Shown here: positions 1-12,440 of the stretch, piece after piece
Layout: every line of letters starts with the position of its first letter
Position numbering within the stretch: position 1 is the stretch's first letter
NCBI GenBank assembly: GCA_900553675.1
Contig: USEH01000047.1
Span: 1 to 12,440, forward strand
DNA: 12,440 nucleotides
Direction of reading: 5' to 3'
Source of the DNA: an uncultured Ruminococcus sp.
GTDB lineage: Bacteria; Bacillota; Clostridia; Oscillospirales; Ruminococcaceae
Translations under genes and position numbers: made by a program
The notes under the pieces: generated by a model
What the model was told of the DNA's origin: nothing
What the model saw: the letters and a program-made list of their open reading frames with translations, nothing else
The model's database searches: none

Positions 1-1
1 A

Positions 2-625
2 AATAATATCCTTTAAATTCATGTTGCCGGACGTATGCAGACGGTTCTGGTTGTTGCTGATAAAACGGAAAGAAATGTCCGGGTGTGACAGGGACAGATG
101 TTCTAACAGCGCATTGATATATCCAGCCTCGGTTGCCGCTGTTTTTAAAAACTTACGGCGCACGGGTGTATTAAAAAACAGATTGCGGATCATAAAAGTC
201 GTTCCGTCCGGTGCGCCGACTTCCTCAAAGCTGACTTCCTTTCCGCCTTCAATCACGTATCGGATACCGGTAAAGCTGTCCGCCGTTTTTGTTACCAGTT
301 CAATCTGTGAAACAGCGGCAATGCTTGAGAGCGCTTCACCACGGAAACCAAGGGAAGAAACGCTCATTAAATCTTCAATGGATTTGATTTTGCTGGTCGA
401 ATGGCGTAAAAATGCCAGTTTAATTTCTTCGGGCGCAATACCGCTTCCGTTATCGGTAATGCGGATAAAAGAAATACCGCCCTCTTTAATCTCTATGGTA
501 ATGGCGGTTGCCCCGGCATCAATCGCATTTTCTACAAGTTCCTTTACAACCGAAGAAGGACGTTCAATCACTTCTCCGGCGGCAATTTTATTAATTGTAC
601 TTTGGTCGAGTACCTGTATCGGCAT
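2..625 (-). CDS. mutL: DNA mismatch repair protein MutL, N-terminal part (cut by window edge)
   Basis: MutL couples mismatch recognition by MutS to downstream excision. Only the first 208 codons are present; the reading frame is open to the left edge of the window. The translation carries the GHKL ATPase motifs of the family. Residues 29-38 hold the catalytic Glu29 and Mg-binding Asn33 in KELVENAIDA, DNGSGI lies at 58-63, and GFRGEAL at 93-99. A family-typical NTPVRRKFL segment follows. The start ATG at 623-625 is preceded by a purine-rich GAAGG site about 5-8 nt upstream. The gene begins 53 nt after the mutS stop on the same strand and is probably co-transcribed with it. Codon use here avoids the Ile codon ATA (two uses in about 25 Ile), like the last third of mutS and unlike the rest of the window. 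The endonuclease C-terminal domain cannot be seen. Confidence 0.97.
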   Translation of the reverse strand, partial: MPIQVLDQSTINKIAAGEVIERPSSVVKELVENAIDAGATAITIEIKEGGISFIRITDNGSGIAPEEIKLAFLRHSTSKIKSIEDLMSVSSLGFRGEALSSIAAVSQIELVTKTADSFTGIRYVIEGGKEVSFEEVGAPDGTTFMIRNLFFNTPVRRKFLKTAATEAGYINALLEHLSLSHPDISFRFISNNQNRLHTSGNMNLKDII

Positions 626-678
626 TTTTACACCTTCTTTCTAATCTGCTTTATAAGCTGTTTCCCGGTAGTTAACGT

Positions 679-3372
679 TTACCAGCGGTTTTTGACCCTG
701 CCTTGTAATTTATATAACGTATTTAGGGCATCAATCGGTGTCATATTACTGATGTCGAGTGCCTTAATATCTTCGATAATATCATCATTATTGACTGTAT
801 CAAAAAGTGACATCTGCTTTACCTCTAAATCATCCACTTTTTTATATGAATCTACCAGTTTTTCCTGTTTCTTGGAATACTGCGCAATATCACGGGCTTT
901 CAGTGAAATATCCGCATCGGATAAATCGGCAACCAGTTCCTTTGCACGTTCGATAACCGTATCCGGTACGCCTGCAAGCTTGGCAACCTGGATACCGTAA
1001 CTTTTATCCGCGCCGCCTTTAATGATTTTACGCAGGAAAACGATGTCATCGCCGTTTTCTTTGACGGCAATGCAGTAGTTGTTGACACCGTCTAATGTAC
1101 CTTCCAGTTCGGTCAGTTCGTGGTAGTGTGTGGCAAACAGCGTCTTGGCGCCAAGCAACTTAGTATTTGCGATATACTCAACAACGGCCCATGCAATGCT
1201 TAATCCGTCAAATGTACTCGTTCCGCGTCCGATTTCATCCAAAATCAGAAGGCTCTTTGGTGTAGCGTTGCGCAGGATATTGGCAACCTCCGTCATTTCC
1301 ACCATAAATGTAGACTGACCGGAAGCTAAGTCATCGGAAGCTCCGACACGCGTAAAAATGCGGTCTACAATACCAATATTGGCTTCCTGTGCCGGAACAA
1401 ACGAACCGATTTGTGCCATCAGAACGATTAAAGCCGTCTGGCGCATATAAGTTGACTTCCCAGCCATGTTCGGTCCTGTAATAATGGAAATGCGGTTCTT
1501 TGTATTGTCAAGGTATGTATTGTTGGCGACAAACATATCGTTGCGGAGCATTTTTTCGACAACCGGGTGTCTGCCGTTTCGTATATCTATAATGCCGTCT
1601 ATAGCTATATCCGGTTTGACATAATTGTTATTAAGCGCAACTGTTGCAAGAGAAGCCAGAGCGTCGATGCTTGCTATTGCTAAAGCTGTTCTTTGAACGG
1701 TTCCAAGCTCGTTTGAAACGTATTGCCGAACCTCTTCAAATATTTCCGCTTCAAGACCTATCATCTTGTCCGATGCGCTTAAAATTGTATCTTCCGCCTC
1801 TTTAAGCTCCTGCGTTATAAATCTTTCGCAGTTGGCAAGAGTTTGCTTTCTTATGTATCTGTCTGTCGGAACAAGGTCATAAAACGTTTTTGTGACCTCT
1901 ATATAATATCCGAATACTCGGTTATATCCTTTTTTAAGTGATTTTATTCCTGTTTTTTCTTTTTCGTCAGCGACTATTTTATCGATAAGTGCGGAGCCGT
2001 TTTTCGCGATGTCCCGCAACTCGTCCAGCTCAGAATTGAAGCCTGTTTTTATATATCCGCCGTCCTTCATGGAATTTGGAAGCGTGTCGCTGATGGCATT
2101 GTTAATAAGGTTTGCTATCTCCGACAAATCGGAGATTTCGCTGTCGAGCGAAAGAATCAGCTTGGAGCGGCACTGTGAAAGAATCTGCTTCATGTCCGGC
2201 AGACACTCAGCTGTGGATGAAAGCGCCTTTAAATCCTGCGGCGACACGGTTTTATACAAAACCTTAGTCATCAGCCTTTCCAGATCATAAACGCCGGAAA
2301 GCTTTTCTCTTAATGTGCCAAGTCGGGCGACATCCGAAAGCAGATCTTCAACAGCGTCCTGCCTTGCAATTATCCTTGCCGGATTCATAAGAGGCTGTTC
2401 GATATACGTGACAAGCATACGCTTGCCCATCGCAGTTTTAGTTTTATCAAGCACCCACAAAAGTGTTCCCTTGCTTGAACCGCTTCTTATGGTTTTAACA
2501 AGCTCAAGGTTGCTTCTTGCTGTATAGCCGATAATCATAATAGCGTCATCGGTGTGTCTTACTATCGAGAAGAATCTTGCAACGCTTGCGCACTGGGTTT
2601 TTTCGATGTACAAAAACAAAGCCGAACATGCCTTTGCCTCAACGTCGGAATCGTCAAGCTCTAAATTGACAAACGAATCGTTTGAAAACTGATTCAAAAC
2701 GGTTTGCTTGTGCTTATAAAAATCAAAGTCGGAATCGTCGAGGCTTTTGATTGAAGCTCTGAGCTTATCATCTATAAAGACATAGGCCTCCTTAAGCCTT
2801 GGAAACTTCTTCTGACAAAGAACCTCCGAGGGCGAATACCTCGAAAGCTTGTTGATGATATATGCCTGCAAATCCTTTTCGGTGGATTTATATAGATGAG
2901 CCTCCCCTGTTGAAATGTCCGCAAAGCAGATAGCGCAGGCTCCGGCTTCGAGATAGACGCTTGCAAGCCAGTTATTCTCGCTCGAATCTATCATATTGCT
3001 GTCGGTAAGAGTTCCGGGTGTGATAATTCTTACAACGTCTCGCTTTACTATGCCCTTGGCTGTAGCCGGGTCTTCAAGCTGTTCGCATATAACAACGCTG
3101 TAGCCCTTGTCTATAAGCCGTTTGATATAGGTGTCGCAGGCGTGATGCGGTATTCCGCACATCGGCGCGCGTTCCTCAAGTCCGCAGTCTTTTGAGGTGA
3201 GAGTGAGTTCAAGCTCCTTCGAGACTAAAACAGCATCGTCAAAAAACATTTCATAGAAATCGCCCAAGCGGAAAAACAGAATGTTATCCATATATTTCAT
3301 TTTTATGTCGAGATACTGCTTCATTCCCTTGGAAACCTTCGACATATCAATGTCTTTATACGTCAACGCCAT
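679..3372 (-). CDS. mutS: DNA mismatch repair protein MutS
   Basis: MutS is the homodimeric mismatch sensor of post-replicative repair. The 897-residue product is slightly longer than the usual 850-880. The N-terminal mismatch-binding domain has the Phe-X-Glu motif at 39-41 within GDFYEMF, which stacks on the mispaired base. The central lever/clamp region follows. The C-terminal ABC ATPase has Walker A at about 633-641 (GPNMAGKST), a signature region with SGQSTF, and Walker B at 708-713 (LLILDE) followed by GRGTSTFDG. The conserved ATHYHEL histidine motif and a C-terminal dimerisation tail follow. The ATG at 3370-3372 has a GGGAG site about 10 nt upstream; a second Met at residue 10 is possible. 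It lies 35 nt after a YlbF-family gene and 53 nt before mutL. Codon use changes abruptly near residues 597-625: no ATA among 26 Ile codons downstream, frequent ATA upstream. Confidence 0.99.
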   Translation of the reverse strand: MALTYKDIDMSKVSKGMKQYLDIKMKYMDNILFFRLGDFYEMFFDDAVLVSKELELTLTSKDCGLEERAPMCGIPHHACDTYIKRLIDKGYSVVICEQLEDPATAKGIVKRDVVRIITPGTLTDSNMIDSSENNWLASVYLEAGACAICFADISTGEAHLYKSTEKDLQAYIINKLSRYSPSEVLCQKKFPRLKEAYVFIDDKLRASIKSLDDSDFDFYKHKQTVLNQFSNDSFVNLELDDSDVEAKACSALFLYIEKTQCASVARFFSIVRHTDDAIMIIGYTARSNLELVKTIRSGSSKGTLLWVLDKTKTAMGKRMLVTYIEQPLMNPARIIARQDAVEDLLSDVARLGTLREKLSGVYDLERLMTKVLYKTVSPQDLKALSSTAECLPDMKQILSQCRSKLILSLDSEISDLSEIANLINNAISDTLPNSMKDGGYIKTGFNSELDELRDIAKNGSALIDKIVADEKEKTGIKSLKKGYNRVFGYYIEVTKTFYDLVPTDRYIRKQTLANCERFITQELKEAEDTILSASDKMIGLEAEIFEEVRQYVSNELGTVQRTALAIASIDALASLATVALNNNYVKPDIAIDGIIDIRNGRHPVVEKMLRNDMFVANNTYLDNTKNRISIITGPNMAGKSTYMRQTALIVLMAQIGSFVPAQEANIGIVDRIFTRVGASDDLASGQSTFMVEMTEVANILRNATPKSLLILDEIGRGTSTFDGLSIAWAVVEYIANTKLLGAKTLFATHYHELTELEGTLDGVNNYCIAVKENGDDIVFLRKIIKGGADKSYGIQVAKLAGVPDTVIERAKELVADLSDADISLKARDIAQYSKKQEKLVDSYKKVDDLEVKQMSLFDTVNNDDIIEDIKALDISNMTPIDALNTLYKLQGRVKNRW

Positions 3373-3407
3373 TTTTTGAACTCACTCCCAATAAATATTT
3401 CTGTGTT

Positions 3408-3815
3408 TTAGTGACAGCCGCCGCAGGTGGAACAGCTACCGGTGCACTGATGCTCAGCCGGACAGGTATAAGGATCCTCGCCGTTGGCTGAAAGGGTGAT
3501 GATGTTGTTGATCTGGTCGAGCATTCTGTCCATCTCGCCCTTTGCTTCGTTATATGCAGACATATTCTTGTTGGTCATGATCTGACCGTAAAGCGCCCTT
3601 ATTTTCTGATTAAGCTCGGCGATTTTATCCTCGCTCTTATTTTCTTTTTTGGACATTTCCTGATTGAGCTGCATTCTGCCGAGATTGAACTCGCCGATAA
3701 GCTTCTGAAGCTCTTCGTCCTTGTCGTTTAAATCCTTTGCTTCAAGATATCTTGAATATCTGGGGTCAGCCTGAATAGCTGCGCCCAATTCGCGTGATAA
3801 TGAAATAACATCCAT
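3408..3815 (-). CDS. YlbF/YmcA-family protein with C-terminal cysteine cluster
   Basis: A 135-residue, mostly helical, charged protein of the YlbF/YmcA (Com_YlbF) type. In Bacillus, members of this family join with YaaT in a complex (RicAFT) that binds Fe-S clusters and affects mRNA processing and development. Residues about 35-105 form long amphipathic helices rich in Glu, Lys and Gln. The last 18 residues are a Cys-rich tail with CX6CX3CX2CX2CH spacing (five Cys and a final His), which suits metal or Fe-S binding. The ATG at 3813-3815 follows AGGAGAG with a 6-nt gap; an in-frame TTG at 3891-3893 lacks comparable support. The gene directly precedes mutS, as ymcA precedes cotE-mutS-mutL in Bacillus, so it may be the YmcA member. 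Function in this organism is inferred only from the family. Confidence 0.85.
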   Translation of the reverse strand: MDVISLSRELGAAIQADPRYSRYLEAKDLNDKDEELQKLIGEFNLGRMQLNQEMSKKENKSEDKIAELNQKIRALYGQIMTNKNMSAYNEAKGEMDRMLDQINNIITLSANGEDPYTCPAEHQCTGSCSTCGGCH

Positions 3816-3937
3816 AGTTTTCTCTCCTAAAAAATTCTGAATATTTATTATATCAGGTGCGGAGTGATTATAGTCTGACTTATCATTTTGCAAATCAAGC
3901 TATAATATCCTTTCCTAAATTATAATACAGGGCTACA

Positions 3938-3960
3938 GTACCGAATCGATAAATCGGCAC
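3938..3960 (-). other. Small hairpin in the ylbF-family leader
   Basis: On the minus strand, GTGCCGA and TCGGTAC can pair (one G-U) around a 9-nt loop. It lies just downstream of the inferred transcription start and about 120 nt before the start codon. There is no T-tract, so it is not an obvious terminator. A role is not evident. Confidence 0.35.
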
Positions 3961-3975
3961 ATTAGATACGGATTT

Positions 3976-4004
3976 ATTATAGCACAAATTATTGTGAATT
4001 ACAA
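3976..4004 (-). promoter_or_regulatory. Sigma-A-like promoter for ylbF-family gene, mutS and mutL
   Basis: The minus strand reads TTGTAA (4004-3999), a 17-bp spacer, then TATAAT (3981-3976), with TG one base before the -10 (extended -10). Transcription would begin near 3969, giving a leader of about 150 nt before the ATG at 3815. Two further TATAAT hexamers at 3867-3872 and 3847-3852 lack a convincing -35. The match is by eye. Confidence 0.6.
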
Positions 4005-4038
4005 GTAGTATATCTACAATTTGTTGGGTTTTACGCAA

Positions 4039-4089
4039 AATTAATTCCTTGCGCAGCCGCGGAATATGCGTTTGCACAAGGAATTAATT
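4039..4089 (-). terminator. Inverted repeat after folT, possible terminator
   Basis: Perfect 13-bp arms (4039-4051 and 4077-4089) flank a 25-nt loop, within which CGCA/TGCG can pair further. On the minus strand the stem is followed by TTTTGCG, a short T-run, and it begins 23 nt after the folT stop. The AT-rich stem and short T-tract make it a weak intrinsic terminator. It lies upstream of the next promoter (3976-4004), which fits a transcription-unit boundary. Confidence 0.45.
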
Positions 4090-4112
4090 GTATTATATCG
4101 GCTATTGACGAT

Positions 4113-4985
4113 TTATTCCGCGGGTTCTTCGATTACAGGCTTGTCAATGCCCGCATTTTCATAAAGCTTGTCGATTTCCGACTGCATTCTTTCAATGGTT
4201 TCCGACTGAGCCGCAACGGTTTTCTTAAGGTCGGAATTTTTGGTTTTAAGATCCTGCTCGGAAAGACCTACACAGCACATAATGACAAGAAGCAGACAGA
4301 CTATATACATCAGCGCTGTAGCAAAGCCGCTGTCTGTGAACACAGCATTCTCCTTAACCTTTCTTACGCCCTTGAACACGGTATTATACGTTCTGAGAAC
4401 GCTTGGAAGGAACAGTGCAAGTAGGAATACGTCAACAGGAAGCAATGCAAGGTTTGATATTACTCTTGCGGGAAGCATAACAAGAAATCCCTTTCCCGCC
4501 ACGCTTGCTATCGCCCATGTCGTCAGCCAGAGGTTGCAGATGATTACAACCGTTGTCTTTGCTGCGATTATTCTCGGAAGAAGCCATTTTCCGTTTACCG
4601 CGTTGTAAAGGAAAAGACCATAAATCAGCGCTCCCAAAGCTTCGATAAGCGTAAACCTTATGTCAAATGCGCCGGTTGGCTTAATGATAAAGCCAAGTAA
4701 ATCGGTTATGATTCCGGCAGCAAAGCCGACCGTGGGTCCGTAAAGCATTCCTATTGAAGCAATTGCAATAAAAGCAAAGGATATCTTCATAGAATCCGTC
4801 ACCTGTATGCCGACAAAAAGCTTAAGCGCTAAATCCAGCGCTATAAGCATAGCCGTAACGCACAGACAACGTATGCTTTTCAGTTCCTTTGCCGAGCGGA
4901 TAAACATGTTATCCTTCAAACGCTCTCCGAGCTTAGAGCTGCTTTTTCGGAAAAAGTTTCCGAGCCTTGAAAAAAAGCTTTTCAT
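4113..4985 (-). CDS. folT: Folate-type ECF transporter S component (FolT-like) with C-terminal extension
   Basis: This is the predicted membrane substrate-binding subunit of an energy-coupling-factor transporter, probably for folate. It would work with a shared EcfA/EcfA'/EcfT module not present here. Residues about 40-200 contain several hydrophobic spans. The region KISFAFIAIASIGMLYGP (67-84), followed by ITDLLGFIIKPTGAF (92-107) and an ALGALIYGLFLY stretch, is typical of the folate S-component family. At 290 residues it is far longer than the usual 165-190. There is a basic N-terminal extension of about 40 residues. A further membrane span lies at about 222-242, and a charged heptad-like coiled coil at about 243-277 precedes an acidic tail. 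The GGAGG site (4996-5000) is 10 nt before the ATG. The THF-type leader upstream supports the folate assignment. The role of the extension is unknown. Confidence 0.85.
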   Translation of the reverse strand: MKSFFSRLGNFFRKSSSKLGERLKDNMFIRSAKELKSIRCLCVTAMLIALDLALKLFVGIQVTDSMKISFAFIAIASIGMLYGPTVGFAAGIITDLLGFIIKPTGAFDIRFTLIEALGALIYGLFLYNAVNGKWLLPRIIAAKTTVVIICNLWLTTWAIASVAGKGFLVMLPARVISNLALLPVDVFLLALFLPSVLRTYNTVFKGVRKVKENAVFTDSGFATALMYIVCLLLVIMCCVGLSEQDLKTKNSDLKKTVAAQSETIERMQSEIDKLYENAGIDKPVIEEPAE

Positions 4986-5015
4986 GATAATTCAACCTCC
5001 AATACATAATTTTTT

Positions 5016-5079
5016 GCTTAATATGCATGGATAGTTATCATGAAAAGCTATCATCAGCAAAGCTGTATGCACGTTAAGC
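5016..5079 (-). promoter_or_regulatory. Hairpin overlapping riboswitch P1 strand (candidate expression platform)
   Basis: On the minus strand, 13-nt arms at 5079-5067 and 5028-5016 pair at 11 positions, interrupted by a 2-nt mismatch. Small CAGC/GCTG and GATAG/CTATC stems lie in the loop. The left arm contains the CTTA (5078-5075) that would close aptamer P1, so hairpin and aptamer P1 cannot form together. The hairpin is followed by AAAAAATT, not a T-run, so it is not a simple terminator. The ribosome site at 4996-5000 lies 15 nt beyond it. Confidence 0.5.
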
Positions 5080-5245
5080 GGGATGCGGAAGCCGAACCGC
5101 AGACAGCACATATATTACGCTGCCATTTCGTCCGCAAAGCAACTCCCCGTCTTTGCGGCACTCATACTTATCTTGCTTTTTAAAGCGTCAATTTTCTCTG
5201 CCTCTCAAAGCTGAAATAAGAATTACGCTCGGATTCCTACTCTTA
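5075..5245 (-). ncRNA. Probable tetrahydrofolate (THF-I) riboswitch, expanded variant
   Basis: The minus-strand leader of folT contains the THF-I elements in order. P1 is TAAG (5245-5242) with CTTA (5078-5075). AGTAG follows P1. P2 is GGAATCCGA (5237-5229) with TCGGCTTCC (5095-5087), one mismatch. GCGTAA follows P2. P3 is CCGCAAAG (5158-5151) with CTTTGCGG (5139-5132), and its loop contains GGGGAG. ACGAA is at 5131-5127, a P4 stem at 5124-5102, then GCGGT, and finally GCATCCCG (5086-5079). In THF-I, the P3 loop (GGGATG) pairs with GCATCCG. Here GGGA can pair with TCCC, and both strands carry one extra base, which looks compensatory. Unlike the usual ~90-100 nt aptamer, a helix of CTTATTT (5220-5214) with AGATAAG (5173-5167) is inserted before P3. 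P1 is only 4 bp. The call rests on motif recall, not a covariance model. Confidence 0.65.
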
Positions 5246-5267
5246 TTTTGCGAATATATGAAAACGA

Positions 5268-6230
5268 TTAAAGTGAAAGCGCGCTTAAAAGCTTATGAAG
5301 ATGCTCGTCATACTTCTTGCTCATTGCAAGCGCTTCATCAATATCGTAATCAACAAGCTTGTTGTTTTTAACCGCGATAATTCTGTTATACGCACCGCTT
5401 TCTATAAGCTCAACAGCGTAACAGCCCATTCTTGCGGCAATAATTCTGTCATGTGCCGAAGGAGCTCCTCCGCGCTGAACATAGCCTAAAACTGTGGCTC
5501 TCGAATCGATACCGGTATGCTCCTGAATATACTTTGCAATATCTTCCGAACCGCCTATTCCCTCAGCTACAACTATTTCAAAGTGCTTTTTGCCTGTTGC
5601 CTTCTGCTCAAGAATCTTTTCGCAAATTTCATCAAGATCATACGGTCTTTCAACGGTTATAACCTCGGTGGCGCCTGTAGCTGCGCCGACGTTTACGGCT
5701 ATATGACCCGCGTGTCTGCCCATTACTTCGATAACCGAGCAGCGGCTGTGGGACATTTCGGTGTCCTTTATCTTGTCTATCATTTCAACACAGGTGTTGA
5801 CAGCGGTATCAAAACCGATGGTATATTCGGTGCAGGAAATATCGTTGTCGATAGTTCCGGGTATGCCTATGCATCTTACTCCAAGCTTTGAAATATCCAA
5901 AGCACCGCGATAAGTGCCGTCTCCTCCTATGCAGACAAGGGTATCTATTCCGACTTCATCGCATCTCTGCTTTGCAGCCTGCTGACCCTCAATCGTCATA
6001 AAAGCTTTGCTTCGTGCGGTGAAAAGCATTGTTCCGCCGCGCTGTACTATATCAGAAACATCTCTGGGACCCATTTCAAAAAGATCGCCGTCTATAAGTC
6101 CCTGATATCCTCTTCTTATTCCAATAACTTTGTATCCTTTATAAAGTGCTGCTCTTGCCACCGCACGAATTGCGGCGTTCATTCCGGGGGCGTCCCCGCC
6201 GCTGGTAAGAATTCCTATTGTTCTTGACAT
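5268..6230 (-). CDS. pfkA: ATP-dependent 6-phosphofructokinase
   Basis: PfkA phosphorylates fructose 6-phosphate to fructose 1,6-bisphosphate, the committed step of glycolysis, in the cytoplasm. The 320 residues match the usual bacterial length of about 320. The nucleotide loop TSGGDAPGMN is at 9-18 and GGDGT at 102-106; Gly105 (Gly104 of the E. coli enzyme) marks ATP rather than pyrophosphate use. The catalytic loop PGTIDNDI is at 124-131 with Asp128 as the base. The substrate-binding MGRHAGH is at 170-176, and GYVQRGG near the C-terminal third is typical of the family. The ATG at 6228-6230 follows GGAGG (6237-6241) with a 6-nt gap. It has its own promoter upstream and is followed by the folT leader after 22 nt. 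No clear intrinsic terminator separates it from folT, so read-through into folT is possible. Confidence 0.98.
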   Translation of the reverse strand: MSRTIGILTSGGDAPGMNAAIRAVARAALYKGYKVIGIRRGYQGLIDGDLFEMGPRDVSDIVQRGGTMLFTARSKAFMTIEGQQAAKQRCDEVGIDTLVCIGGDGTYRGALDISKLGVRCIGIPGTIDNDISCTEYTIGFDTAVNTCVEMIDKIKDTEMSHSRCSVIEVMGRHAGHIAVNVGAATGATEVITVERPYDLDEICEKILEQKATGKKHFEIVVAEGIGGSEDIAKYIQEHTGIDSRATVLGYVQRGGAPSAHDRIIAARMGCYAVELIESGAYNRIIAVKNNKLVDYDIDEALAMSKKYDEHLHKLLSALSL

Positions 6231-6262
6231 GATTAACCTCCGTTAAGTATTAACTTAATTAC

Positions 6263-6294
6263 AACGGCAGCCAATAATATTATACAATGCCGTT
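6263..6294 (-). other. Hairpin in pfkA 5' untranslated region
   Basis: AACGGCA and TGCCGTT (6288-6294 and 6263-6269) form perfect 7-bp arms around an 18-nt loop in the pfkA leader. A smaller dyad, TTAAG and CTTAA, follows at 6243-6258 and ends two bases before the GGAGG site. These structures could affect translation or mRNA stability; no known element is recognised. Confidence 0.4.
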
Positions 6295-6310
6295 CGCCAT
6301 GAACACATTA

Positions 6311-6339
6311 AGCATATCATTACAATGAGTAATTGTCAA
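6311..6339 (-). promoter_or_regulatory. Sigma-A-like pfkA promoter with overlapping dyads
   Basis: The minus strand carries TTGACA (6339-6334), a 17-bp spacer, then TATGCT (6316-6311). The -35 sits within a perfect 8-bp inverted repeat, ATTGTCAA-5 nt-TTGACAAT (6332-6352). A second dyad, ATTAC-5 nt-GTAAT, lies in the spacer (6319-6333). These are possible operator positions; the regulator is unknown. Confidence 0.6.
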
Positions 6340-6352
6340 TATTTTTGACAAT

Positions 6353-6383
6353 AAAATACGCACCAAAAAATGATGCGTATTTT
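6353..6383 (-). terminator. Hairpin terminator after the pseudokinase gene
   Basis: Perfect 10-bp arms AAAATACGCA and TGCGTATTTT flank an 11-nt loop. The T-run lies in the 3' arm and continues as ATTG on the minus strand. It sits about 120 nt past the pseudokinase stop and just upstream of the pfkA promoter. Its symmetry lets it work on either strand. Confidence 0.55.
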
Positions 6384-6503
6384 TCAAATTATCTGTTCAA
6401 ATTTCAACAAAACAAAGGAAATCGTGCGAAAAGAAGCTTCTTTTCATATGTTCTGCAAGCAAATCAGCGCTGATAATAAGTTGAATCCGTAAAGCCGAAG
6501 ACA
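6384..6503. other. Non-coding stretch with two perfect palindromes
   Basis: No gene is seen between the pseudokinase stop and its terminator. The stretch holds a perfect 18-bp palindrome at 6428-6445 (GAAAAGAAG and its complement) and a perfect 12-bp palindrome at 6463-6474 (ATCAGCGCTGAT). Neither matches a site I recognise. Confidence 0.5.
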
Positions 6504-8291
6504 TTATCCAGCAGCATCAAGGTCGGGTGAAAATACTGATATATCTACATAAAGAGTATTGCCATCCTTAACGTTTATCTTACCGCCTACTCCGTCGCCG
6601 CTTTCCTTGCAGTATACACCCATTACCAGTCCTGACTGTTCGGTGGGAGTATTAAGATCCCTGAATTTGTATTTGATATTAAGCTCGTTAAGAATCGCAA
6701 CGTATTCGTCCTTTGTCATTCTTACCCAGAAGCCGGTGAACTCATCAATCTTCATAAAGTCGGGAATATCAACCACTGAAAGACCCTGACTTACAAACAG
6801 CTTTACCTTCTGAACCGGATAAAGGTCGGTTCCGCCGGGAATATCCTGGTCGAATATAAGTCCGCGCTCGTATTCTTCGGAATACTCGTAAACAGCTTCA
6901 AATTCAAGCCGATCCTTCCATGTGTCGCTCTCAACTACAGATGTATACTTCTTGCCCTTCAGATCAGGCATAACAAACATTGTTCCCTGCGGCTTTGTCG
7001 CCTCTGTAACAGGGGGCTGCTCAACACTTATCGGTGGAGCCGTAGGCACGGGAGCGGAGGTATCGGTGGTTGTGACAACCGGCGGAGTGTTGTCGGTCAC
7101 ATCGGGGACATTTGGATTATCATTGGCATCATCCGGGAAGAGCATCATTATCAGTGCAAAGAACGCCGCAACTACTATTACTACCAGTATAACCGCTCCG
7201 ATGAACATTCCGATGTTGGATTTCTTTTTCTTCTTTTTCTTGCCGGCAGAGCTGTTTCTGCGGTCTTTATCCGTAACGTTTATCGGTATTGTCTGTGTTG
7301 CGCCCATCGGCAGCTTGTTCATATAGCTTGGCTGCTCAAAAAGCTTTGTTACAAAGTCGGTTATTGTCTGAATCCTCTGCTGGCAGGAAAGCTGCATTGC
7401 CTGCATTATGACCTTTGAGATATTCGCCGGTACATGAGGATTAATTTTGCAGGGTTCCAAAAGTGATTCGTTGCTGACTCTTGCCATGGCTTCCGTCGGC
7501 ATACATCCGGTAAGCAGACGGTACATAACCGCAGCTACAGCGTAAACATCAGTCCATGTGCCGTCCCAATCGGCGGCAGCATATTGTTCGGGAGCGGAAT
7601 ATCCGGGATAAAGCTCGGGCGCAAGATCGGTATTTACAGTTCTTATCTCGGAAATAGAGAATCCGGTCAGGCGCAGCTCAACCTTATCGGTGACAAGTAT
7701 ATTTTCAAGACTGATTCCCCTGTGAACTATGCCCGCATTATGTAGGCATCCCAAGGTTGTAAGCAGCGGAGGAAACAGCTTTTTAACCTGCTCCCAGCTA
7801 AGCTCACCTGCATTATCTGCAAGATACTGCTTTAAGGTTATTCCGTCGCAATACGGCATGACTGAATAGGCGGTATTGTTGGCATAGAACATATCGCTCG
7901 GGGCTATAATATGAGACATTGTTCTGAACCTCATAAGCGATTTGTTAAGCTCGACAAATTCCGACAGATAATTTTTGTACTGCACCAAAGAAGACTGATT
8001 TACAACAAGCTCGGCAGTTCCTGCCATGCGCTGACAAATAGCGTCTGGCATATACTCGCGGATAAACACCTTTGCGCCTTCTGTATTATCATATCCTATA
8101 TACAGTGCGGATTCACCGTTGAAGCTGAGTAATCTTCCCACGATATATCTCGAATCCAGAACAGTCTTGGGCTGAAGATAAGAAGGCGGATTCAAAGATG
8201 AATCGTCATACCCGCAAAAAGGACATACGCTGCTATTTTCATCTTCTATCGGCTCCATACAGCCCATACACAGCATTTTATGTTCGCTCAT
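6504..8291 (-). CDS. Zinc-ribbon, kinase-fold (pseudokinase) membrane protein with PASTA domains
   Basis: The 595-residue product has a zinc ribbon (C8, C11, C23, C26) and a Ser/Thr-kinase fold at about 48-320. A Lys run (351-357) precedes one membrane span (about 360-385), then a Pro/Thr-rich linker (388-435) and two PASTA-like repeats (about 439-503 and 507-587). The kinase part is therefore cytoplasmic and the PASTA part outside, as in PrkC-type sensors of cell-wall fragments. Its catalytic residues are lost. The Gly-rich loop is degenerate, the VAIK Lys is Arg78, HRD reads HRG (190-192), and DFG reads GFS (210-212). The APE motif (GYSAPEQY, 230-237) and the helix-F Asp (WTDVY, 246-250) remain. 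Phosphotransfer is unlikely; a scaffold or ligand-sensing role is inferred. The ATG at 8289-8291 follows AGGAAAG; an upstream ATG at 8330 lacks a site. It is divergent from cls. Confidence 0.9.
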   Translation of the reverse strand: MSEHKMLCMGCMEPIEDENSSVCPFCGYDDSSLNPPSYLQPKTVLDSRYIVGRLLSFNGESALYIGYDNTEGAKVFIREYMPDAICQRMAGTAELVVNQSSLVQYKNYLSEFVELNKSLMRFRTMSHIIAPSDMFYANNTAYSVMPYCDGITLKQYLADNAGELSWEQVKKLFPPLLTTLGCLHNAGIVHRGISLENILVTDKVELRLTGFSISEIRTVNTDLAPELYPGYSAPEQYAAADWDGTWTDVYAVAAVMYRLLTGCMPTEAMARVSNESLLEPCKINPHVPANISKVIMQAMQLSCQQRIQTITDFVTKLFEQPSYMNKLPMGATQTIPINVTDKDRRNSSAGKKKKKKKSNIGMFIGAVILVVIVVAAFFALIMMLFPDDANDNPNVPDVTDNTPPVVTTTDTSAPVPTAPPISVEQPPVTEATKPQGTMFVMPDLKGKKYTSVVESDTWKDRLEFEAVYEYSEEYERGLIFDQDIPGGTDLYPVQKVKLFVSQGLSVVDIPDFMKIDEFTGFWVRMTKDEYVAILNELNIKYKFRDLNTPTEQSGLVMGVYCKESGDGVGGKINVKDGNTLYVDISVFSPDLDAAG

Positions 8292-8372
8292 TAAAAAATC
8301 TTTCCTTTCAAAAAGACAATGTACTTTCACAATTGCACGCTATCAAGTTTGCATACCTTTACATTCTTTTAT

Positions 8373-8401
8373 ATTTTAACAGTCAAGCTCCCAATTGTCA
8401 A
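8373..8401 (-). promoter_or_regulatory. Sigma-A-like promoter of the pseudokinase gene
   Basis: The minus strand reads TTGACA (8401-8396), a 17-bp spacer, then TAAAAT (8378-8373). The leader would be about 75 nt to the ATG at 8291. It diverges from the cls promoter, with the -35 hexamers 66 bp apart. Confidence 0.6.
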
Positions 8402-8415
8402 TGCTTCTTTGCAAA

Positions 8416-8444
8416 CTGTCATATTGCTGTAACCAACTTGTAAC
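8416..8444 (+). promoter_or_regulatory. Three heptamers at 11-bp spacing between divergent promoters
   Basis: CTGTCAT (8416-8422), CTGTAAC (8427-8433) and TTGTAAC (8438-8444) recur with an exact 11-bp period. This is the layout of PhoB/OmpR-type response-regulator sites; the first unit equals the E. coli pho-box heptamer. It ends 23 bp before the cls -35 and lies behind the pseudokinase -35. The regulator is not identified. Confidence 0.4.
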
Positions 8445-8467
8445 CTTTTTATGAGGTTATATTGCTA

Positions 8468-8496
8468 TTGATATTGCAAGAAAAATGGTGTATAAT
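8468..8496 (+). promoter_or_regulatory. Sigma-A-like promoter of cls
   Basis: TTGATA (8468-8473), a 17-bp spacer, then TATAAT (8491-8496). Transcription would begin near 8503, leaving a short leader of about 28 nt to the TTG start at 8531. Confidence 0.7.
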
Positions 8497-8516
8497 GACC
8501 GTATAAGCATTTGTTC

Positions 8517-8522
8517 AGGAGG
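8517..8522 (+). promoter_or_regulatory. cls ribosome binding site that fixes the start codon
   Basis: AGGAGG at 8517-8522 overlaps the in-frame GTG at 8522-8524, so that GTG cannot be its start. The TTG at 8531-8533 lies 8 nt downstream, a normal spacing, and is preferred. Confidence 0.75.
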
Positions 8523-8530
8523 TGCTGGGG

Positions 8531-10057
8531 TTGAAAAAGGTTTTTAAAATCTTACAGTCGAAGATATTCATAACGGCTCTGCTTGCGTTCATTCAGCTTG
8601 CCGTGTTATTCTATTTTGTGATATCTTTAGCCAATAAATTTGTTTGGTACTATGTTGTAACAACGATTATATCAATTCTGATCGTTCTTGACATAGCCAA
8701 CGAGGACATGAATCCGTCATTCAAGCTGACATGGATAATAGCGGTTCTTATATTCCCCATCTGGGGCGCGCCGCTTTATCTTATATTTGCAAAGTCCAAA
8801 CAAAGCTATCGCATAGGAAAACGCTTTAAAAGCTACAGACTGATGATGCGCAACGCTATGAGTTCCGAAGGCGACAGCATCCACGAAATAGAATCGGAAG
8901 ATCCTGAAATAGCGCGACAGATGAAATACATCAAAAAAACCGCCTATGCTCCTGTATATAAAAACACCTCAGCCAAGTATTTTTCTTCGGGAGAAGAGTA
9001 TTTTAACGCGGTTGTGCGCGAGCTTACCCGTGCCGAAAAATTTATTTTCATGGAGTATTTTATTATCGAGCAGGGCAAGATGTTTGGCGACATACTTGAA
9101 ATACTAAAAACCAAAATATCCGAGGGCGTTGAAGTTAGACTTATGTACGACGATTTCGGAACGGTTCAGAAGCTTCCAAAGGGCTATGAAAAATATCTTG
9201 AGGGGCTTGGCATAAGCGTTTCGGTATTCAACCGTATCCGCCCCTCGCTCGACACCTTCCTAAACTACCGCGACCATCGCAAGATCCTTGTTATCGACGG
9301 AAACACAGCCTTCACCGGCGGAATAAATCTTGCCGACGAGTACATCAACGAAGTGGAAAGGTTCGGTCATTGGAAGGACACCGGAATTATGATAAAAGGC
9401 GAGGCTGTTACCAAAATGACCGAGACGTTTTTGCAGCTTTGGCACTTCTCCCGCGGGGAATCAAAGGTCGACTACGACGAATATCTCGGAGATTTTGAGT
9501 GCGAATCAGACGGTTACATTCAGCCCTATGCCGACGGACCATCAAACGACCAGCTTATCTGCGAGCTTGCCTATCTGGGTATCATCAACAGTGCTACTAA
9601 AAACCTCTACATCACAACTCCATATCTTATTCTGGACAACGAGATGACCACTGCCCTCACCCACGCCGCTATGAGCGGGGTCGATGTAAGAATAATCACT
9701 CCGCATATTCCGGACAAGAAAACTGTCTTTGCGGTTACACGCTCAAATTACCGTGCGCTTCTGAACGCCGGAGTTAGAATATATGAATATACCCCCGGAT
9801 TTATTCATGCTAAGTCTATAGCCGCCGACGGCAAAATATGCGTAGTCGGAACGGCAAACTTTGATTTCCGCAGCTTTTATCTGCACTTTGAAAACTGTAT
9901 TCTGGCATACAAGTCAAAGTGCGTGAAAGAGGTCGAATCGGACTTTTGGGAGACTATGGAGAAATCTCAGGAGGTAACCATAGAGCAGCTGAACAAAAAA
10001 GGTGCGCCTTACGCTCTGCTTCAGGCTATCCTTAAGGTATTTTCTCCGCTTATGTAA
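8531..10057 (+). CDS. cls: Cardiolipin synthase, phospholipase D superfamily
   Basis: This membrane enzyme is predicted to condense two phosphatidylglycerol molecules into cardiolipin and glycerol. The 508 residues match bacterial Cls (about 480-515). Two N-terminal hydrophobic spans (about 12-34 and 39-54) and a third at 67-87 form the PLDc_N anchor. Two HKD motifs (HxKxxxxD) follow: H249, K251, D256 in YRDHRKILVID, and H426, K428, D433 in FIHAKSIAAD. Each is followed by the expected Gly/Asn-rich strand (GGINLADEY, GTANFDFRS). The start is taken as TTG at 8531 because the ribosome site overlaps the upstream GTG. It is the only plus-strand gene, with its own promoter and a terminator at 10079-10111. 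The closest alternative is another phosphatidyltransferase of the same family. Confidence 0.94.
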   Translation: MKKVFKILQSKIFITALLAFIQLAVLFYFVISLANKFVWYYVVTTIISILIVLDIANEDMNPSFKLTWIIAVLIFPIWGAPLYLIFAKSKQSYRIGKRFKSYRLMMRNAMSSEGDSIHEIESEDPEIARQMKYIKKTAYAPVYKNTSAKYFSSGEEYFNAVVRELTRAEKFIFMEYFIIEQGKMFGDILEILKTKISEGVEVRLMYDDFGTVQKLPKGYEKYLEGLGISVSVFNRIRPSLDTFLNYRDHRKILVIDGNTAFTGGINLADEYINEVERFGHWKDTGIMIKGEAVTKMTETFLQLWHFSRGESKVDYDEYLGDFECESDGYIQPYADGPSNDQLICELAYLGIINSATKNLYITTPYLILDNEMTTALTHAAMSGVDVRIITPHIPDKKTVFAVTRSNYRALLNAGVRIYEYTPGFIHAKSIAADGKICVVGTANFDFRSFYLHFENCILAYKSKCVKEVESDFWETMEKSQEVTIEQLNKKGAPYALLQAILKVFSPLM

Positions 10058-10078
10058 AAGCTCTGCAAAACCACACAA

Positions 10079-10111
10079 AACCCGCGCCGTACTTTATGTT
10101 CGGAGCGGGTT
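10079..10111. terminator. Bidirectional hairpin terminator between cls and rluA-family gene
   Basis: AACCCGC and GCGGGTT form a 7-bp GC-rich stem, extended past one mismatch by CCG/CGG, around a 9-11 nt loop. It lies 21 nt after the cls stop and 14 nt after the stop of the convergent rluA-family gene. The minus-strand side is followed by TTTTGTGTGGTTTT; the plus side by a less T-rich ATATTCTG. Confidence 0.75.
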
Positions 10112-10125
10112 ATATTCTGTAATTC

Positions 10126-10770
10126 TTACGCAAAATTAAATACATTCCAAGGAAACGCATCAGGTGGCAAAAGCCTGAAGTCAAGACGTTTTCCGCTTAT
10201 CGGATGGTTAAAGCTTATTTCATGTGACCACAGCGAAAGCTTGATATCGTCCTTTTTCCCGCCGTACTTAATATCTCCAATAAGCGGATGCTTTCTGGAT
10301 GCAAACTGCACCCTAATCTGATGGGTTCTGCCGGTGTGAAGTCTGATTCTCAGCAGAGTTACCGGTACATCAAGCACTATCGCCGAGCCGACAGTCTGAT
10401 ATTCAAGTGTGGCAAGCCTTATGCCTTTACGCTCCGATTTTACGACATATGACTTATTTTTCTGCTTGTCGTGATACAAATAGTCATCAAGCCTGTCCTC
10501 AGGCTTCTCCGGCATTCCGAGGACTATAGCCAGATAGTACTTTTCAAACTCACCTTTTTGCATTGATTCCGTCAGCTTTGCCGCCGCGCGCTTAGTCTTA
10601 GCAAGTAAAATCAAGCCGCCGGCGTCCTTATCAAGGCGATGAACAGGGTAAATATCACATCCGAGCTTCTGTGAGACAAGACTTGTAAGCGTATGTTCCG
10701 AATCTATGCCCTGCGGCTTACAGACAACGCACAGCTCGGAATCTTCGTATATTATTTCGATCGGATTCAT
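10126..10770 (-). CDS. RluA-family RNA pseudouridine synthase
   Basis: Predicted to isomerise specific uridines in rRNA or tRNA to pseudouridine. The 214-residue protein has the catalytic HRLD motif at 44-47 (Asp47), followed by KDAGGLILLAKT. The conserved GRTHQIRVQ strand lies in the C-terminal half, then an HPLIGD segment. It lacks an N-terminal S4 RNA-binding domain, so it is a short member; the target site cannot be told from sequence. Its ATG (10768-10770) overlaps the prmA TGA by 4 nt (ATGA), which implies translational coupling. In many Firmicutes prmA is instead followed by the 16S rRNA methyltransferase gene rsmE, so the pairing is another RNA-modification partner. It ends at the shared terminator facing cls. 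Confidence 0.93.
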   Translation of the reverse strand: MNPIEIIYEDSELCVVCKPQGIDSEHTLTSLVSQKLGCDIYPVHRLDKDAGGLILLAKTKRAAAKLTESMQKGEFEKYYLAIVLGMPEKPEDRLDDYLYHDKQKNKSYVVKSERKGIRLATLEYQTVGSAIVLDVPVTLLRIRLHTGRTHQIRVQFASRKHPLIGDIKYGGKKDDIKLSLWSHEISFNHPISGKRLDFRLLPPDAFPWNVFNFA

Positions 10771-11735
10771 GATTTTTTAAATACTGCGGCATTCCACATT
10801 TCACAGCTTCTTGATTCTATAAGTGTAAAGCCTTTTTGCTTTATAGCCCCGAAGACTTCATCCTGCCTGCCGTCGATAATGCCGGAAAGCACAAGCGTGC
10901 CGCCAGGTGCTGTTATGTCGGCAAAAACATCCTTCATAGCTAAAAGAACATCCGCCACTATGTTTGCCGCAACCAATGTGTAGCCCTTTCCTACCTTTTG
11001 CCGCAACGCCCCATCCGTTACAACGTCGCCGCAGTAGGAAATATACTTTTCGGCAGGTATGCCGTTCTTTGTGGCATTTTCTCGCGAAATCTTTTCGGCG
11101 TCTGCCGATATGTCTACAGCGACGGCTTTTTCAGCACCGTAAAGCATAGCGGCAATCGAGATTATTCCGCTTCCGCAGCCAAGGTCGCAGACAGTGTCTC
11201 CGCGCTTTATATACTTTTCTAAAAGCTCAAGGCAAAGGCGGGTGGTGTGATGTCTGCCTGTTCCAAAGCTTGTTTCAGGGTCAATTTCAAGTACTATCCG
11301 CTTGTTATCCTCCGGAAGAGTCTCCCATGAGGGCTTTATGACAAGTCGTTCGCCTATATTCAGCGGCTTGAAATACTGCTTCCAGTTGTTAGCCCAGTCC
11401 TCTTCTTTGATGCTTCCCGAAGATATTCTAAGCTCGCCGTATTCGCCTTTTTCATCCGCACTCTTAAGCCAAGCCACAGCCGAGCTTACAGCTTCAAGCT
11501 GGGCAGCACCGGTTTCATCATCCGGAATATAAACGGTGATATAAGTTTCCTTGCCGACAAGCTCGTAAACCTCCTCGCCTATATAATCCCAAGACGCGTT
11601 TTTATTACGTTCAAATTCTCTGATGTCCTCCGGATCGTTGATAACAAAGCCCTCTATTCCGCTCATAATAAGAGCGTTTGAAAGAGGTTCTATACCCGAA
11701 TGTGAGGTATATATTTTAAGTTCTTTCCATTCCAT
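10767..11735 (-). CDS. prmA: Ribosomal protein L11 methyltransferase
   Basis: PrmA trimethylates ribosomal protein L11 using S-adenosylmethionine. The 322 residues match the usual 295-320. An N-terminal L11-recognition domain occupies about 1-110. Then come the family signature DPETSFGTGRHHTT at 152-165 (usually FGTGxHxTT), the SAM-binding motif I DLGCGSG at 184-190, an acidic VAVDIS strand end at 205-210, and AANIVADVL at 256-264 as the catalytic NxxA motif. The ATG at 11733-11735 has GGAG 8 nt upstream. It overlaps the downstream rluA-family gene by 4 nt. A promoter at 11788-11816 followed by a terminator-like hairpin (11750-11786) lies directly upstream, so expression may depend on read-through of that hairpin. 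Confidence 0.97.
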   Translation of the reverse strand: MEWKELKIYTSHSGIEPLSNALIMSGIEGFVINDPEDIREFERNKNASWDYIGEEVYELVGKETYITVYIPDDETGAAQLEAVSSAVAWLKSADEKGEYGELRISSGSIKEEDWANNWKQYFKPLNIGERLVIKPSWETLPEDNKRIVLEIDPETSFGTGRHHTTRLCLELLEKYIKRGDTVCDLGCGSGIISIAAMLYGAEKAVAVDISADAEKISRENATKNGIPAEKYISYCGDVVTDGALRQKVGKGYTLVAANIVADVLLAMKDVFADITAPGGTLVLSGIIDGRQDEVFGAIKQKGFTLIESRSCEMWNAAVFKKS

Positions 11736-11749
11736 ATGTCAATCTCCAT

Positions 11750-11786
11750 AAAAAAGTCGCAGTACAGGAATTAACCTGTCTGCGGC
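11750..11786 (-). terminator. Intrinsic terminator between the ECF gene and prmA
   Basis: On the minus strand GCCGCAGACAGG pairs with CCTGTACTGCGAC (one bulged A, one mismatch) around a 6-nt loop, and TTTTTT follows at once. It starts about 45 nt past the ECF gene stop. It also lies immediately after the prmA promoter and just before the prmA ribosome site, so it could be a leader attenuator rather than only the upstream gene's terminator. Confidence 0.75.
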
Positions 11787-11787
11787 T

Positions 11788-11816
11788 ATTTTATCATATT
11801 TTTTCGCAAAAATCAA
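11788..11816 (-). promoter_or_regulatory. Sigma-A-like promoter of prmA
   Basis: The minus strand reads TTGATT (11816-11811), a 17-bp spacer, then TAAAAT (11793-11788). Transcription would start near 11781-11785, inside the 5' arm of the hairpin at 11750-11786. The promoter begins 16 bp after the stop of the upstream ECF gene. Confidence 0.6.
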
Positions 11817-11831
11817 TCCTGATAAGCACTA

Positions 11832-12440
11832 TCAGTGAGATTTCTTGTATTCGGCGTACATCCAGATTGCGCCGAAGGATATTGCAAGGAAGACTATAAC
11901 AACTGGAATCCATACAGCCCAGTTAATTTTCTTCGATTCCTTCTTCTCAAACAGCATAGCTCCGATGGCGGTAGATTTCAGCGGAACACGCAGTGCAAAG
12001 AACAGTGGTACAGATACCGCAACCGCTATAACAGCGTTTACAGATGAGGTTATCGCGTTGGTTGCAGTCGCTGAAAGAGCAGTTTCCTGTGCTGCACCAA
12101 GCAGAATCTGACCGATGTATGTTTTCGACAGATACATGAATATATATGCAAGCTGTCCTACTATCGAGCTTACTGTTATCCCTAAAACTACCTTACCGGT
12201 TTTCTTCTCCCCTCTTATCCTCGAGGCAAGGACTCCGCACAAAAATCCCATTGCAAATTTAGAAAGAAAAGTAAACGGTGCAGAAATGATATATACAGGG
12301 TCTAAAAGGTCATAGATTGCCGCGCCGATTCCGGATGCAAGACCTCCTCCAAGTCCACCTAGCAATAGTCCCGCAAGCAGACACATCGAGTTTCCGAAGT
12401 GGATTCGTGTTATAAGCACGCCGTTCGGTATTTTTATCTG
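11832..12440 (-). CDS. ECF transporter S component, substrate unknown (5' end off window)
   Basis: A small integral membrane protein; 202 residues are visible and the frame stays open to the right edge, so the true start is outside. The visible N-terminal part (IKIPNG, then IHFGNSMCLLAGLLLGGLGG and a GIGAAIYDLL segment) is the pattern of many vitamin-type ECF S components: an IHxG segment followed by a Gly-rich helix. Further hydrophobic spans lie in the middle (VVLGITVSSIVGQLAYIF, then an Ala-rich helix). A last span (WIPVVIVFLAISFGAIW) ends in a short basic tail. Such proteins bind one micronutrient and use a shared energising module. Substrate cannot be assigned. A GTG at 12417-12419 is in frame, but the family motif continues upstream of it. 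It ends before the terminator at 11750-11786. Confidence 0.85.
   Translation of the reverse strand, partial: QIKIPNGVLITRIHFGNSMCLLAGLLLGGLGGGLASGIGAAIYDLLDPVYIISAPFTFLSKFAMGFLCGVLASRIRGEKKTGKVVLGITVSSIVGQLAYIFMYLSKTYIGQILLGAAQETALSATATNAITSSVNAVIAVAVSVPLFFALRVPLKSTAIGAMLFEKKESKKINWAVWIPVVIVFLAISFGAIWMYAEYKKSH

Follow-up and report, generated by a model that had tools for sequence, protein, structure and literature searches.

Gene Content of the Window

The window, meaning the whole stretch of 12,440 nucleotides that was analyzed, contains the start of mutL, a mutS gene, and eight further genes. The mutS reading frame continues without interruption across a seam that separates sequences related to two different families of Clostridia. 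The features are:

679-3372, minus strand: hybrid mutS of 897 amino acids, in frame across the seam, with 85.2% identity to protein P0001 and 63.4% to protein P0133 over the full span
1-1554, minus strand: Lachnospira-like block with the opening part of mutL (2-625) together with the ATPase half of MutS (679-1554), assigned from identities to locus L001, five identical C-half proteins, and ATA in 0 of 26 Ile codons
1555-1579, minus strand: seam, the at most 25 bases that the parents could share (NGRHPVVE codons plus one base), placed by protein differences and a codon scan
1580-12440, unstranded: Oscillospiraceae/Ruminococcus-like block with the MutS N-terminal part and eight genes (ylbF, an ECF S component, pfkA, a PASTA kinase, a cls-like gene, a pseudouridine synthase, prmA, and a second ECF S component), assigned from P0001, ylbF, the kinase, and the codon score

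All five MutS domains were present in the protein encoded by the window mutS. Scans of the whole window identified no Rfam family at threshold and no tRNA. Two different ECF-type transporter S components were encoded within about 8 kb of sequence (4113-4985 and 11832-12419, both on the minus strand). The gene at 6504-8330 (minus strand) codes for a PASTA-domain Ser/Thr kinase whose N terminus, as judged by eye, is cysteine-rich and zinc-ribbon-like. Its listed frame begins with GTG and is 21 codons longer than the 98% identical relative P0241 (587 amino acids), and the true start is probably downstream of this GTG. A 213-codon open frame antisense to mutL (3-644, plus strand), which is open at the window edge, is most likely a mirror ORF.

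Codon Usage Break Within mutS

The sharp codon-usage break that an earlier note on this DNA had placed inside mutS, ahead of the Walker A motif, was recovered in the present analysis. Upstream of the seam, ATA encoded 24 of the 50 Ile residues, whereas it encoded none of the 26 lying downstream (Fisher P 3.9e-6), and the counts given in the earlier note for the vicinity of the junction were reproduced (four ATA codons at 1584-1608 and 12 within 1561-1980). The best change point for ATA fell after the Ile codon at 1584 and before the one at 1491 (permutation P 4e-4 from 10,000 shuffles, with positions searched over). Splitting mutS at the GRHP codons, the share of CTT and CTC decreased from 40/65 to 7/28 Leu codons and that of AGA and AGG from 16/27 to 2/13 Arg codons, in agreement with the two further shifts that had been described, and the low use of ATA attributed to mutL was likewise found (2 of 25 Ile codons). 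The genes to the right of the junction, described earlier as using ATA freely, had 9 to 23 ATA codons each, the exceptions being ylbF (1/9) and rlu (8/16).

A codon log-likelihood scan over the mutS run, of the kind that had been proposed as a check, placed the switch after MutS residue 604, at about window position 1561, with a score that was reached in 0 of 5000 permutations. The scan tables contrasted the right-hand genes with mutL alone, and mutS was excluded from training. The right-hand codon type was scored by all eight right-hand genes (8/8), each being left out of its own codon table when scored, and by the mutS N part.

Related mutS genes were also compared, as an inherited codon shift had been named as a finding that would speak against a junction. 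A difference in ATA between the two mutS parts at P <0.05 was found in none of 32 relatives (lowest value 0.052, in L011), comprising 19 right-hand-side and 13 Lachnospira-like mutS genes with identical C parts counted once, seven of the 19 right-hand-side genes having only 59-67 C-part codons present and L028 and L030 being left out of the count since they yielded no mutS with the motif. Codon usage is strongly divergent between sister species of one Lachnospira-like genus, in which ATA made up 1 of 64 Ile codons in the mutS of L008 vs. 25 of 65 in that of L009. The ATA fraction was 0.33 in the Lachnospira-like loci vs. 0.06 in the left block of the window, and for this reason the seam was placed without codon tables from relatives and Lachnospira is indicated by protein identities rather than by codon usage alone.

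Relatives of the Two MutS Halves

MutS residues 1-590 and 640-897 were searched apart, about 8000 matches being scored and the top 120 listed for each, and the closest relatives of the two halves differed rather than being held in common. Among the best 120 of about 8000 matches, the N part had 100% identity to P0001 (873 amino acids, from an Oscillospiraceae-like lineage), followed by five proteins at 96-97%, three more at 85-86%, and thereafter values of about 70%. In an end-to-end alignment, MutS residues 1-606 were identical to P0001 and the first mismatch was at residue 607. The rounded identity of the C part was 100% in all of its 120 best matches (of about 8000), 88 of which were 884 amino acids long. 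The last mismatch against these 120 proteins was at residue 598 in five, 624 in 114, and 882 in one, and residues 599-897 were identical to five proteins among the matches listed, including the Lachnospira-like P0133 (884 amino acids). The two parental types represented by P0001 and P0133 share 48.5% identity.

No protein combining both parts was found among the 240 relatives (best 120 per half), none of which had N and C parts that were both at least 80% identical to the window. A Lachnospira-like tail was present in 0 of the 120 best N-half matches and the tested N-lineage signatures in 0 of the 120 best C-half matches. The protein database was clustered at 90%, with P0001 representing 26 sequences, and a rare recombinant could escape view because of this clustering and the use of the best 120 matches per search, although the hybrid itself has 85.2% identity to P0001 over the full span.

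The lineage labels were inferred from a few titles of relatives, those on the right-block relatives being Oscillospiraceae bacterium and Ruminococcus sp. Among the loci compared, the nearest to the left block was L001 from Lachnospira sp. RGIG8490 (water deer cecum), with identities of 94.8% over MutS residues 607-897, 86.1% for mutL, and merely 42.4% for the N part. A search of genome contigs for MutS relatives identified two, and four pattern matches in viral contigs included no true MutS relative. The best long match in 22 genomes of the Lachnospira-like genus was 81% and the best full-length match in 31 genomes of the right-side genus was 68%, while 396 genomes from the larger right-side family contained nothing closer than 68% over a long stretch.

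Genes Flanking the Junction

Nine loci from the two lineages were compared with the window. The five Lachnospira-like loci had C-part identities of 86-95% and N-part identities of 42-46%, and the four right-lineage loci had 66.5-67.2% for the N part and 59-67% for the C part. The window mutL sided with Lachnospira in 9/9 loci, with 80-86% identity in the five Lachnospira-like loci vs. 51-56% in the four right-lineage loci. The mutL gene was located after mutS in all nine loci and, as this arrangement is common to both lineages, local gene order is kept across the join.

On the other side of the junction, ylbF was directly before mutS in 4/4 right-lineage loci (59-79% identity) and had no match in the four Lachnospira-like loci with upstream sequence, the fifth (L001) starting inside mutS. 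None of the four right-lineage loci (17.5 kb in three and 6 kb in one) contained a match to any of the seven window genes farther out than ylbF, and gene order therefore backs ylbF only. Full-length matches to the kinase had identities of 98, 94, 94, and 86%. The contig with the 86% match and that of P0009, an 85% match to the MutS N part, both measure 226,965 bases, and this equal size alone suggests that the two genes are on one contig. Both mutL and the tested right-hand genes (ylbF and the kinase) go with their respective halves of mutS.

Position of the Seam and the Shared Word

Protein differences bound the switch to MutS residues 598-607, and the seam lies about 80 bases ahead of the Walker A codons, which start at 1476. 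At residue 598, the Lachnospira-like Lys codon can match the window CGA in its last base only, and at residue 607 no Leu codon starts with the A of the window. The length of the shared word is thus an upper bound of 25 bases (1579 down to 1555), derived from proteins and codons. Among relatives, L020 from the right lineage shared 22 bases of the seam word with the window and the Lachnospira-like L052 shared 14. When 247 pairs of relatives were compared, the longest run in common across or at the seam measured 6 bases at the median and 20 at most, none being at least 21, and the same pairs contained 20 runs of at least 21 bases elsewhere in mutS, nine of them near 1440. It is plausible that the true parents have a 21-mer in common here, though this would be atypical among pairs of relatives.

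Origin of the Junction

The window is very probably a chimeric contig that arose when two genomes were misassembled through a short word common to both inside mutS. Its two parts have two origins with the switch at the seam, the tested neighbors follow their own halves, and the codon break is a difference between two genomes rather than a property of one. The earlier note had offered two causes, of which chimeric assembly was strongly supported by the separate closest relatives at 100% for each half, the neighbors following these halves, and the overlap of at most 25 bases; recombination with another lineage was unsupported, the parents being 48.5% identical and from different families and the hybrid not recurring among the matches listed. 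We infer that the join is a product of assembly software and not of a cell.

The proposed sequence of events involves two unrelated gut-type Clostridia of different families, one Lachnospira-like and one Oscillospiraceae/Ruminococcus-like, whose genomes would share an exact word, no longer than 25 bases, where mutS encodes the conserved NGRHPVVE. Taking the window as a metagenome contig, the assembler would have crossed from one genome into the other through this word, possibly with a k-mer of about 21 as the bridge. The join is in frame and the gene looks intact because the word is at the same codon positions and mutL comes after mutS in both lineages. The literature contains reports consistent with such events, including more inter-genome translocations with MEGAHIT (PMC9661791), a tendency of chimeric contigs to form between similar gene homologs (PMC4133164), and contaminants among Lachnospiraceae pangenome genes (PMC12108083). 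As in an inter-genome translocation misassembly, two genomes are joined at a short stretch of a conserved gene and relatives and codon usage are kept on each side; the difference is that the join is in register within one gene, with frame and local order intact.

Mosaic mutS alleles are known in Escherichia coli and their parents are strains of one species. The window resembles them in that ancestry differs along mutS or its neighborhood and is unlike them in that the parents come from separate families and the hybrid did not recur among the matches listed. A related study concerns the neighboring mutS-rpoS region (PMC4209514). A real recombination between families, in which an Oscillospiraceae-like cell gained a Lachnospira-like mutL and MutS ATPase half, is improbable. 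It would require one crossover in the at most 25 identical bases and a second to the left of the window, and would result in a hybrid mismatch-repair system. The in-frame join at aligned codons is compatible with such an event. The pairing minimum of bacterial RecA is given as at most 30 identical bases, so that 25 would not be clearly insufficient, and an identity block above this minimum is described as recombining more readily if heterologous sequence flanks it (PMC8918686). However, the same paper indicates that dense divergence of about 30% would preclude homologous recombination (PMC8918686), and the similarity of the parents, with proteins of 48.5% identity from different families, is below that expected of a natural mosaic. 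The event would also have to be very recent because the two sides have each kept 100% identity to different intact proteins, the hybrid was absent from the 240 relatives (best 120 per half), and a single junction was present in the window, which ends inside mutL.

A chimeric molecule formed in the laboratory by template switching during amplification or library preparation, and then faithfully assembled, would have the same anatomy, with one join where a brief stretch is identical; such molecules would generally be rare among reads and seldom dominate an assembly, and this origin is very improbable. A codon shift within one genome, by selection or old vertical inheritance, is scarcely credible. 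The seam is close to the domain with the strongest conservation, in which a different codon usage is conceivable, but the 0/32 relatives with an ATA difference at P <0.05 argue against a shift of this kind, which also leaves the two sets of identical relatives unexplained, and its old inherited form was refuted by the different identical relatives on each side together with the same absence of the shift from relatives.

Implications

With a chimeric contig as the favored origin, no function should be assigned to the hybrid MutS. The window is a warning that an in-frame join that keeps gene order yields a plausible MutS absent from both parents, and the hybrid contig would assign mutL and half of mutS to an organism that they do not come from. 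Joins of this kind can be detected cheaply by looking for a break in codon usage within a conserved gene. A real join would represent recombination between sequences considered too divergent for it, in the very gene that polices recombination.
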